Source of the DNA: a bacterium
GTDB lineage: Bacteria; UBP6; JAFGXH01
DNA length: 21,027 nucleotides
Reading direction: 5' to 3'
NCBI GenBank assembly: GCA_027064085.1
Contig: JAMOQH010000018.1
Location: 1-21,027, forward strand
A model generated the notes under the pieces. The model worked only from the letters and a program-made list of their open reading frames with translations, did not search any database and had not been told where the DNA came from. Shown piece by piece: positions 210 to 14,627 of the stretch. The translations under genes were made by a program, and so were the position numbers. The number at the start of each line of letters is the position of its first letter. Within the stretch, counting starts at the first letter, position 1.

Positions 210-347
210 ATGATAAAGGAAATATATACACAATTGTACTTGCACAACCGTATGAGTGGAATAAATACAATTGTGTTTACTCATACGTTAGGCATTATTA
301 GGGAGAACGAAGATATTAACATACAAAAGGAAATAAAATGGCAATAA
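210..347 (+). CDS. Possible 45-codon leader ORF crossing the first recombination site
   Basis: An ATG at 210 follows a good Shine-Dalgarno sequence (GAAGGAAAG, 198-206). The frame stays open through the whole recombination site at 242-293 and ends at TAA 345-347, overlapping the first 10 nt of the cassette 1 gene. The predicted peptide begins MIKEIYTQLYLHNRMSG and resembles nothing I know. The layout recalls the short ORF-11/ORF-18 in the class 1 integron attI1 site, known to raise translation of the first cassette gene. Here that role is inference; the ORF may be chance, although its ribosome site and the overlap with the next start argue for coupling. Confidence 0.35.
   Translation: MIKEIYTQLYLHNRMSGINTIVFTHTLGIIRENEDINIQKEIKWQ
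242..293 (+). other. Short attC-like (or attI-like) integron recombination site
   Basis: Core GTTAGGC (287-293) has the GTTRRRY form cut by integron integrases between G287 and T288. It is preceded by a 9-bp inverted repeat, CGTATGAGT (249-257) with ACTCATACG (279-287), and by a loose left core GCACAAC (242-248). The left core pairs only partly with the right core, which is expected because the right core belongs to the next cassette. At about 52 bp this would be a short attC, or the end of an attI site. It marks the left boundary of cassette 1. Confidence 0.6.
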
Positions 348-1979
348 CATTGAAAAGACAAATATCAGAAGATGAAAAGAAAAGAATTATTGAACGTTTT
401 GGAAGGAAATGTTACGCAACTGGACACGAAATTCCAGAAAATGAAGAAATACAATATGACCATATTAAAGCATTCGCAGATAAAGGTGTAAGTGAAATTG
501 ATAATATCGCACCAATGTGTAAAACACATAATTTACAGAAAGGTCGGTTACCATTAGAAGATTTTAGAATTAAACTTAGAATGAATGAGTTTTTTGAAAA
601 AGGTAATACTTTAACGCTAAAAGATGAATTACTATTTTTTAAAGAAAAAGGAGATATTAATAAATTCGGAGAAACAGTTTATTTTGAAGAATCTGATAGT
701 AACATAAATGTTGAGATAAATTCAAAAAAGTATTCTTTTCAACTTCATAAATGCCCGACTACTGGTTGGAAATATTTTTATGCAACTATTCCTGTCGAAG
801 TAATAAATAGCGATGATGATGAAGACGAAGAGATTGGGTTACAACCAAGATATTTAATTCAAGACAAAGTTTTTAATTTATATCGTCATTTCCAAAAGCA
901 TCCAGTTATTCAACCATCAATTGCAAGAGTTCACAATAATAAAATTTTGGTTTTTGATGGTCAACATAAAATTGCTGCAATGTTATGGGATAATAGAAAT
1001 ATTTTTGAATTAAAAATCTATCTAAATCCCGATGCTCATCTATTAAACAAAACAAACATTGCTGCTCACGACAAATTTGCTCAAACAAGATTCTATTCAT
1101 CAATTATGGTTTCAAAATTGGGTAGTCAGTTTGGTAAATTATTCGATGAATATAAAAATTCGGAAGATGATGCATTAAAATCAGAAAAAGGATTTGTTGA
1201 TTATTTGAAAATATCTGACCAATTGACAAACGGAGAAGTAAATAAAAGATTTAAAAGTTTTCTATATAGTGCTGTACTTGATGAAGAAGTAAATAAATTA
1301 TCAAGATTAGTATCAAAAACAAATAGAAGTTCTGATGAGTATCCAATAACAATGGATATGCTAAGCAAATCTTTATTTTCAAATTTTCTGTATTTAACAC
1401 CTGTTGAAGAAGATTTGGCATCAAACAAATATCTTAGAGAGCAAGAGATTAATAACCTTGTAACCCTTTTTAATATCTTGGATGAAGAAATCCTGCATCA
1501 ATGGGATTTTACAAAACCAAAGTCGGACTTGTTACAGATAAAGTTAAAGAGACTAATTAGAAGTAAATCTATAATGTCTTGGTCTGAAATTTTAAAAGAC
1601 GCAATTGCTGCGAAATTAGATATTTTCGATGCAGATGAGAAAGCAATACTATTTTACAGAGAATTAAATGATGAAGATTTCATTAAAATACGTGAAATTG
1701 TAAGAAGATTAATCAATTGGAGTGTTTGGAATTTACCAGAAAATTCAGATATCGATAGAATACTTGCTGACAACAAAAGTGAAATTAAAAAGTTTTTTAG
1801 AGAAAAAGGACTAACAACTGGATATTTAATGGGTGCACCTGAATAATAACAATGCCTAACAATGTATATAAGGCATTGGGCGGCAAGTAGTTAAATTGAA
1901 TGATATGAAGATTAATAAACGGTATAGTAAATTGAAAGTTAGGTGTTTCAAAATGCCCAACGCCTCATATACGAAACCG
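288..1979 (+). mobile_element. Integron gene cassette 1 (HNH/DGQH protein)
   Basis: This is the circularisable unit from T288 to G1979. Its first bases, GTTAGGCATT (287-296), are the exact reverse complement of AATGCCTAAC (1851-1860) at its far end, so the two halves rebuild a fully paired attC on excision. It holds one gene in the usual cassette orientation, starting 51 nt after the core and ending 7 nt before the left core of its attC. Confidence 0.8.
338..1846 (+). CDS. HNH nuclease-domain protein with ParB/DndB-like DGQH motif; probable defence protein
   Basis: The 502-residue soluble protein has two recognisable parts. Residues about 15-70 form an HNH (treble-clef) nuclease domain: Cys25, the Asp41-His42 pair, Asn56 in NIAPMC, Cys61 and His64-Asn65. 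HNH domains cut DNA using one metal ion. Residues about 170-260 contain FDGQHKIAAM (Asp207-Gly-Gln-His210), the signature of the ParB-like fold in DGQHR-motif proteins such as DndB. An acidic run near 158-165 may be a linker; the C-terminal half is helical and unrecognised. No membrane segment is seen. The start is set by AAGGA at 327-331 and matches the leader of cassette 2. It is the only gene of its cassette, so it should act alone. A role in phage or plasmid restriction is inferred from the domains and the cassette setting; the family name is unknown to me. Confidence 0.7.
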   Translation: MAITLKRQISEDEKKRIIERFGRKCYATGHEIPENEEIQYDHIKAFADKGVSEIDNIAPMCKTHNLQKGRLPLEDFRIKLRMNEFFEKGNTLTLKDELLFFKEKGDINKFGETVYFEESDSNINVEINSKKYSFQLHKCPTTGWKYFYATIPVEVINSDDDEDEEIGLQPRYLIQDKVFNLYRHFQKHPVIQPSIARVHNNKILVFDGQHKIAAMLWDNRNIFELKIYLNPDAHLLNKTNIAAHDKFAQTRFYSSIMVSKLGSQFGKLFDEYKNSEDDALKSEKGFVDYLKISDQLTNGEVNKRFKSFLYSAVLDEEVNKLSRLVSKTNRSSDEYPITMDMLSKSLFSNFLYLTPVEEDLASNKYLREQEINNLVTLFNILDEEILHQWDFTKPKSDLLQIKLKRLIRSKSIMSWSEILKDAIAAKLDIFDADEKAILFYRELNDEDFIKIREIVRRLINWSVWNLPENSDIDRILADNKSEIKKFFREKGLTTGYLMGAPE

Positions 1980-1985
1980 TTGGTG
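1854..1985 (+). other. attC recombination site of cassette 1
   Basis: Left core GCCTAAC (1854-1860) and right core GTTGGTG (1979-1985) flank an imperfect 18-nt inverted repeat, 1864-1881 against 1955-1972. Sixteen pairs are Watson-Crick. The two others are A/C on the top strand, hence T/G wobbles on the bottom strand, which fits the known folding of the bottom strand of attC before recombination. A smaller hairpin, TTGAAA (1932-1937) with TTTCAA (1946-1951), lies inside. The inner 3' part is nearly the same in the attC at 3664-3793, so the two belong to one attC family. Confidence 0.82.
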
Positions 1986-2029
1986 GCAATATGAATAGAA
2001 GAATTTAACAATATAAAAAAGGAAATGAA

Positions 2030-2428
2030 ATGGCAAAAAGAAAAGTATTTATTAGTTATGATTATGTCAATGATAGACATTACAAAAATTTATTATTAGC
2101 TTGGGATAGCAATAAACAATTTGATTTTTCAATAAGTGATTATTCCGCAGATGTTTCTATTAATAGCACAAAAGCTTCTGCAATTAAGTCTGTTTTATCA
2201 AGGTACATAAATGAAGCAACAACATTTTTAGTTATCGTTGGTAAACATACCCACAAAAGTGCTTGGGTGCGCTGGGAAATACAGAAAGCAGTAGAATTAG
2301 GGAAAAGAATTGTAGCGGTAAAAACAGATAGAGAGAATATAACACCACCCGAACTTTATGGAGTTGGTGCAAGTTGGGCTATGTCATTTACTTATTCTTC
2401 AATCGTAACAGCTATTAAAAATGCCTGA
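2030..2428 (+). CDS. ThsB-like TIR-domain protein
   Basis: This 132-residue protein consists of a single TIR-like domain of the MTH538/DUF1863 group, which includes the Thoeris sensor ThsB. The first strand is KVFISYDY (5-12); a middle strand TTFLVIVGK (64-72) is followed by SAWVRWEI (77-84), where Glu83 is the likely catalytic glutamate of NAD-cleaving TIR enzymes; then GKRIVAV (91-97). In Thoeris, ThsB proteins sense phage and make a cyclic ADP-ribose-type messenger from NAD. There is no signal peptide or membrane segment. The start at 2030 has the sequence AAAAAGGAAATGAAATGG, nearly identical to the cassette 1 start, and lies the same 51 nt from the core. The gene overlaps the next one, so the two products probably work together; the messenger role is inferred. 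Confidence 0.75.
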   Translation: MAKRKVFISYDYVNDRHYKNLLLAWDSNKQFDFSISDYSADVSINSTKASAIKSVLSRYINEATTFLVIVGKHTHKSAWVRWEIQKAVELGKRIVAVKTDRENITPPELYGVGASWAMSFTYSSIVTAIKNA

Positions 2429-3656
2429 TTATTCTGATAAAACTTGTTTCGTGATAATGGGTTATGGTCCTAAAAAGGACTATGAAACAGAAAGGATTTT
2501 AGATTTAGATAAAACTTTTGAAAATTTGATTAAGCCTGTTTTTGATAGCCTTAAAATTAAATGTTTCCGAGCAAAAGATATAAGGCATACTGGCGTAATT
2601 GATGTTCCAATGTATGAATGGATATATAAAGCAGATATAGTTGTTGCTGACTTGTCTACATTGAATTCAAATGCTTTATATGAATTAGGAGTTAGACACG
2701 CATTAAAACCATATACTACAATTGTAATATCAGAAGACCAATGCAAATACCCTTTTGATGTTAATCATACAGTTATTGAAAAGTATGAACATTTGGGTAA
2801 AGATATTGGTGTGTCAGAAGCGAAAAGATTTAAAAAAGAGTTGAAAAAGAAGGTTAAAGCAATTTTAAACAAACAAGTAAAAGACAGTCCTGTTTACACT
2901 TATTTGCCTAAATTAATACCGCCTCATTTAGACGACAAACGAGAAGCTATTTTAAAAAGTCCACAAAAGAATGAGCCAACACTTTCAGAACTCGTTGAAG
3001 ATGCTGAAAAAGCAAAAAATAATAATGAATTCAAAATAGCGGCTGAACTATATAAACAATGTTTACGCTTTGAGCCCAATAATACTTTTTTAATACAAAG
3101 ATTAGCCCTTGTAACTTATAAATCAAAAAGCCCCAATCCAAAACAAGCTTTACTAAAAGCCGAAAAAATATTAAAACAGTTAAATCCTGATGAAACAACA
3201 GATATTGAAACACTCGGTTTGTCGGGAGCAATAAACAAAAGACTTTACGAAATAACTAATGAAGAGAAATACCTTTATAAATCAATTAAATATTATGAGA
3301 AAGGGTTTTATATAAATGATGACTATTATAATGGAATAAATTTAGCATTTTTATACAATGTGCTTGCTTCAATTACAGACGATAAATCTCTATCTGAAAG
3401 TTATTATATACAAGCTAATTTATTACGAAAGAAAGTAATTGAAATATGCGAGAAAATAATTCAATCAAAAGGTTTTGTTAAAAGAGAAGATAAACATTGG
3501 TTATATCAGTCAATGGCACAAGCATATTTGGGTATGGGAGAAAACAAAAAATTGGAAAAGTTAATACCGATTATAGAAAATTATTCTAATGGTAAATTTG
3601 ATTTGGACACTTTTAAGAAACAAAATAAAAAACTTATTGAATTGATAAATAGATAA
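2421..3656 (+). CDS. TIR/deoxyribosyltransferase-like domain fused to TPR and TRAFs-binding (TPR-S) region; probable effector
   Basis: The 411-residue protein has three parts. Residues 7-125 form a Rossmann-like domain with CFVIMGYG (9-16), ADIVVADLST (71-80) and ALYELGVRHAL (85-95). This is the pattern of nucleoside-deoxyribosyltransferase/TIR-like nucleotide-cleaving domains, with Glu88 as the candidate catalytic residue. Residues about 188-255 read as TPR helices. Residues about 260-411 resemble the TRAFs-binding/DUF4071 region (called TPR-S in conflict-system studies), with ETLGLSGAINKR (263-274) and the SIKYYEKGFYIN stretch from residue 288. The start codon lies inside the end of the TIR gene with no separate ribosome site, so translation is probably coupled. 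A reasonable model is that the TIR protein makes a signal which the C-terminal module senses, setting off the N-terminal enzyme; this is inference. The domain calls are firmer than the mechanism. Confidence 0.7.
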   Translation: MPDYSDKTCFVIMGYGPKKDYETERILDLDKTFENLIKPVFDSLKIKCFRAKDIRHTGVIDVPMYEWIYKADIVVADLSTLNSNALYELGVRHALKPYTTIVISEDQCKYPFDVNHTVIEKYEHLGKDIGVSEAKRFKKELKKKVKAILNKQVKDSPVYTYLPKLIPPHLDDKREAILKSPQKNEPTLSELVEDAEKAKNNNEFKIAAELYKQCLRFEPNNTFLIQRLALVTYKSKSPNPKQALLKAEKILKQLNPDETTDIETLGLSGAINKRLYEITNEEKYLYKSIKYYEKGFYINDDYYNGINLAFLYNVLASITDDKSLSESYYIQANLLRKKVIEICEKIIQSKGFVKREDKHWLYQSMAQAYLGMGENKKLEKLIPIIENYSNGKFDLDTFKKQNKKLIELINR

Positions 3657-3663
3657 ATACTGC

Positions 3664-3793
3664 CACCAACAAAGGCTATACGTAATGCGGGTAAAGTGCT
3701 AAATATGAACATTGTAGCAATAAATAAAATTAGTGGTAAATTGAAAGTGTGGTGTTTCAAAATCCCAAACTAACCATATAGTCACCGTTACCA
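3664..3793 (+). other. attC recombination site of cassette 2
   Basis: Left core CACCAAC (3664-3670) and right core GTTACCA (3787-3793) bound a site of about 130 bp. The inner arms pair imperfectly: CTATACG near 3676 with CATATAG near 3776, and GGG near 3689 with CCC near 3764. One top-strand C/A mismatch becomes G/T on the bottom strand. The inner hairpin TTGAAA (3741-3746) with TTTCAA (3755-3760) and its surroundings (3734-3770) are close copies of 1925-1961 in the previous attC. The right core differs from the left core because it belongs to the following, decayed cassette. Confidence 0.75.
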
Positions 3794-3812
3794 CACATAA
3801 GAAGAAAAACCA

Positions 3813-4098
3813 ATGCACATAATTGACAAAGAAAAAAAATAGAATATCAAAACTTAAAGAAAAGACTTTTACAACTCAAAAAATATACGGACCTATCGAA
3901 TTTTTCCTTACTGTAATAGATTTAGATAATGTTGCACCAAAATATGGAAAAAGAAAATTAGAAGATTTTTTTTAATAAAGAGGTGAAGAAGTAACTGAAT
4001 TTTGAGACCGAAGTCTAACCAATAAAGGAATTCTTGATGAGACAAAGAATTACTGTATTTCTAGCTTGAAACTTGATTTTAGTATTAAAAAAGTTTAG
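3813..4098 (+). pseudogene. Decayed gene of a third cassette
   Basis: After the core at 3787, an ATG at 3813 opens a frame that ends at TAG 3840-3842, just after a run of eight A (3832-3839). Adding one base there joins it to a frame reading RISKLKEKTFTTQKIYGPIE, which continues from 3841 to TAA-TAA at 3973-3978, next to a run of eight T. The same frame reads on after that (RGEEVTEF, a TGA at 4006-4008, then DRSLTNKGILDETKNY) to TAG 4096-4098. The residue composition looks like protein, so this is probably a broken gene of about 95 codons. I do not recognise the family. No downstream attC core matching GTTACCACAC is present, so the cassette has lost its right end. Confidence 0.4.
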
Positions 4099-14119: not shown

Positions 14120-14377
14120 TTATTTATAGTGACCCTTACAACTATAAATGAAAATATTTTTATCATCAATACTGTAAATTAATCTATGCTCAGGAGTTAT
14201 TCTTCTGCTCCATAAACCCATTAATTCATGTTTTAGTGCTTCAGGCTTTCCTAATCCAGAATTTCCATTCCTATCTATATCTTTTAGTAATTCATTTATT
14301 TTTTTTAAAGTCTTCTTGTCTTGTACTTGCCAATACAAATAGTGTTTCCACGAAATATCTGAAAAGACTTTATTCAT
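14120..14377 (-). CDS. yoeB: YoeB-family mRNA interferase toxin
   Basis: The 85-residue RelE-fold toxin cuts mRNA at the ribosome. It matches YoeB along its length (WKHYLYWQVQDKKTLKKIN, GLGKPEALKHELMGLWSRRI, EHRLIY, SCKGHY). The residues known to be catalytic in E. coli YoeB are at the same numbers: Glu46, Arg65, His83, Tyr84. Length is normal and nothing is missing, so it should be active. It overlaps the antitoxin gene by 8 nt, which couples their translation. Confidence 0.95.
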   Translation of the reverse strand: MNKVFSDISWKHYLYWQVQDKKTLKKINELLKDIDRNGNSGLGKPEALKHELMGLWSRRITPEHRLIYSIDDKNIFIYSCKGHYK

Positions 14378-14627
14378 ATTCTATTAACTCCCTAATTTGT
14401 GTTTTACCTTCTTTTATTTGTTCTATTGATTCAAGTAATTCATTATAATATTTTTTATTACTTCTAACAAATAGGTTTTCCATTAGGTTATTATATTCTG
14501 CCTCAGAAATCATAACAACATTGCCACCATGCTTCCTTGTTACAACTATTGTTTCATAATCTTCATTTGCAATATCACAATAATCTTTAAAATTCTTTCT
14601 TACATTTGTATAATTTACGGCTAACAT
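14370..14627 (-). CDS. yefM: YefM/Phd-family antitoxin
   Basis: The 85-residue antitoxin begins MLAVNYTNVRKNFKDYCD, with the Phd/YefM fold that binds DNA, followed by the typical IVVTRKHGGNVVMISEAEYNNL segment. The C-terminal tail (from about 50) would wrap the YoeB toxin. It represses its own operon through the palindrome at 14637-14654. The ATG at 14627 has the ribosome site AGGAGG just upstream. Confidence 0.93.
   Translation of the reverse strand: MLAVNYTNVRKNFKDYCDIANEDYETIVVTRKHGGNVVMISEAEYNNLMENLFVRSNKKYYNELLESIEQIKEGKTQIRELIEYE

Follow-up and report, generated by a model that had tools for sequence, protein, structure and literature searches.

The two overlapping genes analyzed here encode a small TIR protein and a larger effector, and their pairing is real: they form a conserved two-gene unit. 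They lie in a stretch of DNA of 21,027 nucleotides, in the following called the window. On sequence grounds the gene pair is predicted to be a widespread bacterial defence module, which probably kills or stalls infected cells. We incline, at somewhat better than even chances, towards its interpretation as a Thoeris-like TIR-messenger defence cassette with an effector other than ThsA. The features of the window and of one further contig of the same genome are:

338-1846, forward strand: neighbouring cassette outside the pair, encoding a protein of 502 aa whose N-terminus carries an HNH segment (HNH 0.0015, IscB-HNH segment 5e-6, both below cut-off)
1848-1990, no strand assigned: attC-like repeat of the left flank (GCCTAAC ... 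GTTGGTGGC), an imperfect inverted repeat (p 0.0005)
2020-2024, forward strand: AGGAA, resembling a ribosome-binding site, for the TIR gene
2030-2428, forward strand: stand-alone ThsB-family TIR protein of 132 aa with ATG start, a predicted messenger-making NADase with Glu83
2421-2428, forward strand: 8-nt overlap of the TIR stop and the effector start, seen in the sequence
2421-3656, forward strand: effector of 411 aa with ATG start, composed of a DRHyd/NDT-like domain (about aa 5-150) and a TPR-S domain (about aa 185-411)
3657-3796, no strand assigned: attC-like repeat of the right flank (inverted-repeat test p 0.47, not significant)
L064 (G000:C188:66000-71000), 2497-3860, reverse strand: complete-looking type II Thoeris cassette of the same genome (ThsA TM-macro and ThsB)

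The product of the first gene was matched by the Pfam model ThsB_TIR (PF08937) with 75.1 bits (E 6.3e-21; cut-off 21.2) and by the PADLOC ThsB model with an E value of 9e-17. The original prediction of a small, ThsB-like, stand-alone TIR protein is thus confirmed by both. An AF2 model of the protein (pLDDT 76, pTM 0.77) has ThsB and other TIRs as its nearest structures, and E83 aligns with the glutamate of a solved ThsB structure. E85 of ThsB is catalytic and required for the cADPR isomers and for ThsA stimulation (PMC10022894). The position of E83 is occupied by Glu in all aligned TIR segments that have a residue there (52/52). E83 is the predicted catalytic residue of the TIR protein and the predicted counterpart of ThsB E85.

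The second protein exceeded the curated cut-offs of two Pfam families, TPR-S (PF20308; 75.8 bits, E 4.6e-21, cut-off 27.6) and MAP3K_TRAF_bd (PF13281; 27.4 bits, E 2.1e-6, cut-off 24.1), and so the TPR and TRAFs-binding region that had been proposed for this protein was recovered. SIR2, SLOG, macro and caspase domains were not detected in the effector by Pfam, PADLOC and NCBIfam scans, and the expected lack of SIR2 and SLOG therefore held. The proposal of a nucleotide-cleaving Rossmann domain at the N-terminus stood in part. The ALYELG motif of this domain aligned with the YELG motif of DNPH1/Rcl in a profile search against the PDB, but PF05014 was matched with only 12.8 bits, under its curated cut-off of 28.8. 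The 12 PDB matches of the domain profile were all DNPH1/Rcl, each with an E value of 0.12-2. Because these matches are sub-threshold or weak, we name the domain DRHyd-like only.

Residues D77, N84, E88, R92 and H93 of the DRHyd-like domain are invariant among 22 TIR-paired effectors. E88, the predicted catalytic glutamate of the effector, occurs in 22/22 of these TIR-paired proteins and in 98% of 52 DRHyd-TPR-S proteins. In the TPR-S domain, E263, K273, G305, N307 and W360 are present in every one of the same 52. The effector is predicted to be a messenger-gated protein.

In the AF2 model of the effector (pLDDT 79, pTM 0.54) the N-terminal domain is the less certain part. The top Foldseek match of this model was ASK1 (8qgy), covering both domains. 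VIA gave the central regulatory region of ASK1 (5ulm) as top match (Z 16.3, rmsd 3.3, 202 residues), with a score tied with other TPR proteins. Since TPR folds match widely, the structural resemblance to ASK1 is weak by itself. At the sequence level, the distant bacterial DRHyd-TPR-S protein L037 matched ASK1 with an E value of 2e-10, in an alignment that takes in the G-x-x-x-K and G-x-N positions, and the TPR-S profile matched 5ulm over nearly its full length (E 8e-11). The TPR region of ASK1 keeps the G-x-x-x-K and G-I-N motifs. Among solved structures, a sequence search revealed no TPR-S protein of bacterial origin.

The gene overlap described in the original prediction was borne out by the open reading frames 2030-2428 and 2421-3656 and suggests translational coupling. 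Nine relatives of the effector were obtained from species genomes. In the eight whose effector is at least 60% identical, a TIR gene lies directly upstream of the effector gene, in the same order and on the same strand, and the two genes overlap or are within about 10 nt of each other. When these eight genomes were searched as a whole, each held a single relative of the window TIR, and it adjoined the effector. Copies of the system were also observed on plasmids of Klebsiella, Acinetobacter, Vibrio and lactobacilli. Most plasmid relatives with 35-44% identity are accompanied on either side by one to three TIR genes, in a changed order and sometimes on a changed strand. No relative was found in the viral contigs searched, and the matches in the phage records searched resemble the N-terminal domain only.

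In a tree of 52 DRHyd-TPR-S proteins the window effector falls inside a clade of 31 members with a support of 100/100. A TIR gene lies within 1 kb at 22 of the 31 clade loci, in contrast to none of the 21 DRHyd-TPR-S proteins outside the clade, with one call, at L065, discounted. The adjacency on which the original prediction depended is consequently well documented. A TIR neighbour noted at L065 was dropped as spurious with a domain E value of about 1. For nine of the 31 members the 1-kb span holds no TIR gene; one of these has a TIR about 2 kb off, and in another an IS interrupts the TIR gene. At 11 of the 31 clade loci two or three TIR genes are found within 3.5 kb. This resembles the Thoeris system of B. 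cereus, in which two ThsB act on one ThsA (PMC10022894).

The same data bear on the question whether a diffusible messenger is involved at all. In a rather unlikely alternative, the TIR protein would bind the TPR scaffold directly, and NAD would be destroyed by the resulting complex. TPRs are generally known as mostly protein binders, and the TBD of ASK1 packs between the TPRs of the dimer (PMC10972558). The very short intergenic gaps would suit such a contact, as would the correlation between the TIR and effector distance matrices (r 0.88, p 0.0001, 16 pairs). However, within the nine close pairs this correlation is weak (r 0.49, p 0.07), so it probably reflects mostly shared descent at depth. 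Moreover, several divergent TIRs per effector, and likewise the changes of order and strand at L014, L016 and L034, are better suited to a shared small molecule than to a fixed complex.

TPR-S proteins carry, besides DRHyd-like domains, also TIR, trypsin, caspase plus esterase, cyclase or alpha/beta-hydrolase domains. The clearest case is a Lichenicola plasmid (L053:5001-7359), on which the gene of a TIR protein with 53% identity to the window TIR precedes that of a TIR-TPR-S protein, the two being separated by a single gene. The TIR-TPR-S protein occupies the place of the DRHyd-TPR-S protein. This locus adjoins an MmeI-type restriction enzyme. In a Bacteroidota genome (L117:1-3075) a caspase-esterase-TPR-S protein is encoded beside a TIR gene, an arrangement that may bear on messenger sensing in TIR-caspase systems. 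A TPR-S domain that keeps one motif and stays constant while the enzymes change, together with at least one TIR, would suit a shared receptor that senses a messenger made by the TIR and drives different effectors.

TIR-less pairs of a DRHyd-TPR-S protein and a second TPR-S protein were found at L037, L065, L066, L068, L071, L097-L100 and L122-L124. In the two pairs that were checked (L037, L122) the second protein is an alpha/beta-hydrolase. Because this large sister group pairs DRHyd-TPR-S with hydrolase-TPR-S proteins in the absence of a TIR, the DRHyd domain might itself make signals in some systems. For the window this opens the unlikely alternative of reversed roles, with the DRHyd-TPR-S protein making or amplifying the signal and the TIR protein acting as the NAD-depleting effector. 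The coupling to hydrolase partners would agree with such an arrangement, and DRHyd and TIR both belong to NAD-processing superfamilies (PMC9503650). Against it, the window TIR belongs to the ThsB family, in which those members that have been tested produce messengers (PMC10022894). Moreover, the number of TIR genes differs from locus to locus, whereas there is one TPR-S protein, and the sensor-type domain resides on the second protein.

The gene pair is flanked by attC-like repeats, and the span of 1980-3787 originally assigned to it includes parts of both (1848-1990 and 3657-3796), which the original prediction does not mention. A core of 61 nt of the left repeat recurs at the right flank with 75% identity. 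Folding of the flanks as single-stranded DNA gave a z of -2.5 for the left flank and nothing for the right one, and the core boxes at the right ends of the repeats fit GTTRRRY inexactly. A repeat at L012:9780-9925 matches the right flank with 78% identity over 125 nt. L012 is a Bacteroidales contig carrying the same system, and its effector is the nearest tree neighbour of the window effector. We regard this likeness as a sign that a cassette was exchanged between phyla. When the window repeat was sought beside the relatives it was found in L012 only; downstream stretches of L007, L009 and L011 look alike to the eye but did not pass the inverted-repeat test.

The right flank is further 76% identical over 79 nt to G000:C188:68354-68432. 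Apart from the two flanks, this is the sole place in the genome where the repeat core occurs, and it adjoins the type II Thoeris cassette (6.6e-56 for ThsA macro, 5.5e-58 for ThsB). A GmrSD/DUF262 fragment lies past this cassette. A mobile, defence-like context is supported by the flanking repeats, the plasmid copies and the repeat shared with the type II Thoeris cassette. No integron integrase was found at the cut-off in the draft genome; the best TIGR02249 pieces, both from one ORF, reached 111 and 97 bits (cut-off 265), and the IntI-specific segment was unmatched in this ORF. The cassette is not marked as foreign by its base composition.

Several neighbouring genes were recorded. To the left of the cassette at 338-1846, near 240-298, there is a terminal GTTAGGC like the end of an attC site. 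A YoeB/YefM-like toxin-antitoxin pair, judged by sequence only, is located on the reverse strand of the window at 14120-14627, and toxin-antitoxin genes occur near several copies of the system. DUF4231/SLATT genes for two-TM effectors are found near plasmid copies (L014:8366-9226, L043:7349-8209; also L016, L047 and L050). Restriction genes (AlwI-family, MmeI) adjoin some loci. A stress-response or plasmid/cassette addiction module without antiphage function, which the nearby toxin-antitoxin genes might suggest, is very improbable, since the TIR protein belongs to the family known from Thoeris, some loci have restriction genes as neighbours, neither gene resembles an antitoxin and the flanking repeat of the window also adjoins a type II Thoeris cassette.

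In the favoured Thoeris-like interpretation, infection would trigger the TIR protein, which would convert NAD+ to an ADP-ribose-type messenger. In the second protein, TPR-S would bind this messenger in a pocket that the motifs E-T-x-G-L-x-G-x-x-x-K and Y-Y-x-G-x-N would line, and would switch on the N-terminal DRHyd-like domain. The latter would then cut an N-glycosidic bond in NAD+ or a nucleotide via Glu88, and the depletion of NAD+ or nucleotides would lead to aborted infection. The stable pairing, the conservation of both glutamates, the partner swaps of TPR-S, the loci with several TIRs and the mobile setting support this interpretation. The tie of the N-terminal domain to the NDT family, which is weak by sequence, the TIR-less DRHyd-TPR-S group and the nine of 31 clade members lacking a near TIR speak against it.

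The effectors known from Thoeris contain SIR2-SLOG, TM-macro or caspase domains (PMC12847820, PMC11204291), and a type III Thoeris has been named in the literature (PMC12390725). Like Thoeris, the system has a TIR of the ThsB family with an invariant catalytic Glu, an adjacent single effector, sometimes several TIRs and a mobile setting. Unlike types I, II and IV, it combines the TIR with a DRHyd-like plus TPR-S protein in which SIR2-SLOG (type I), TM-macro (type II) and caspase (type IV) were not detected. As a pair it matches no system of PADLOC-2023. In the literature searched on TPR-S in Thoeris, on DUF4071, on TRAFs-binding proteins in defence and on Thoeris types III and IV, no description of the pair was found, and none of the make-up of type III; Costa 2024 does not mention Thoeris.

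The TPR-S conflict systems share the same TPR-S domain (PF20308). Burroughs and Aravind (J Bacteriol, 2020) reportedly predicted such a module from sequence, with a TPR scaffold that would recognise NAD-derived signals, and the same scaffold is said to have been taken up by the ASK signalosome, with descent into ASK. A passage of PMC8195603 cites Burroughs & Aravind 2020 for the link to the animal ASK signalosome. The present analysis differs in that the conservation of the pair and its clade were measured. The original proposal of a candidate new Thoeris-like system is partly supported: it agrees with the absence of the pair from PADLOC-2023, but is weakened by the reported 2020 prediction and by the naming of type III.

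With DNPH1/Rcl and the nucleoside deoxyribosyltransferases the effector shares the YELG motif with the active-site glutamate and a Rossmann-like core; unlike them, it stays below the Pfam cut-off, has PDB E values of 0.12 or worse and is fused to TPR-S. The N-terminal TBD and central regulatory region of ASK1/MAP3K5, a human stress kinase, follow the same order of a Rossmann-like domain and then TPR-S. ASK1 continues into PH and kinase domains. FYHLGVRES of ASK1 aligns with the catalytic-Glu motif, and the Glu is not kept. A more far-reaching extension, speculative and quite doubtful as a whole, would have the TPR-S domain of an as yet uncharacterised Thoeris type recognise an ADP-ribose messenger from the TIR and gate nucleotide or NAD cleavage, with the same ligand pocket kept in ASK1, so that ASK1 would sense an NAD-derived metabolite. 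The two-domain head is shared with animal ASK1, and knowledge of a bacterial ligand would therefore make it testable what the ASK1 TPR region binds. The pair would also offer a system of two small-scale, soluble components for direct tests of the predicted TPR-S receptor. If the messenger mechanism is true, a further output would be added to TIR messenger immunity. Judged by its sequence, the pair appears as a variant of TIR-messenger immunity, not wholly new as an idea and set apart from Thoeris types I, II and IV.
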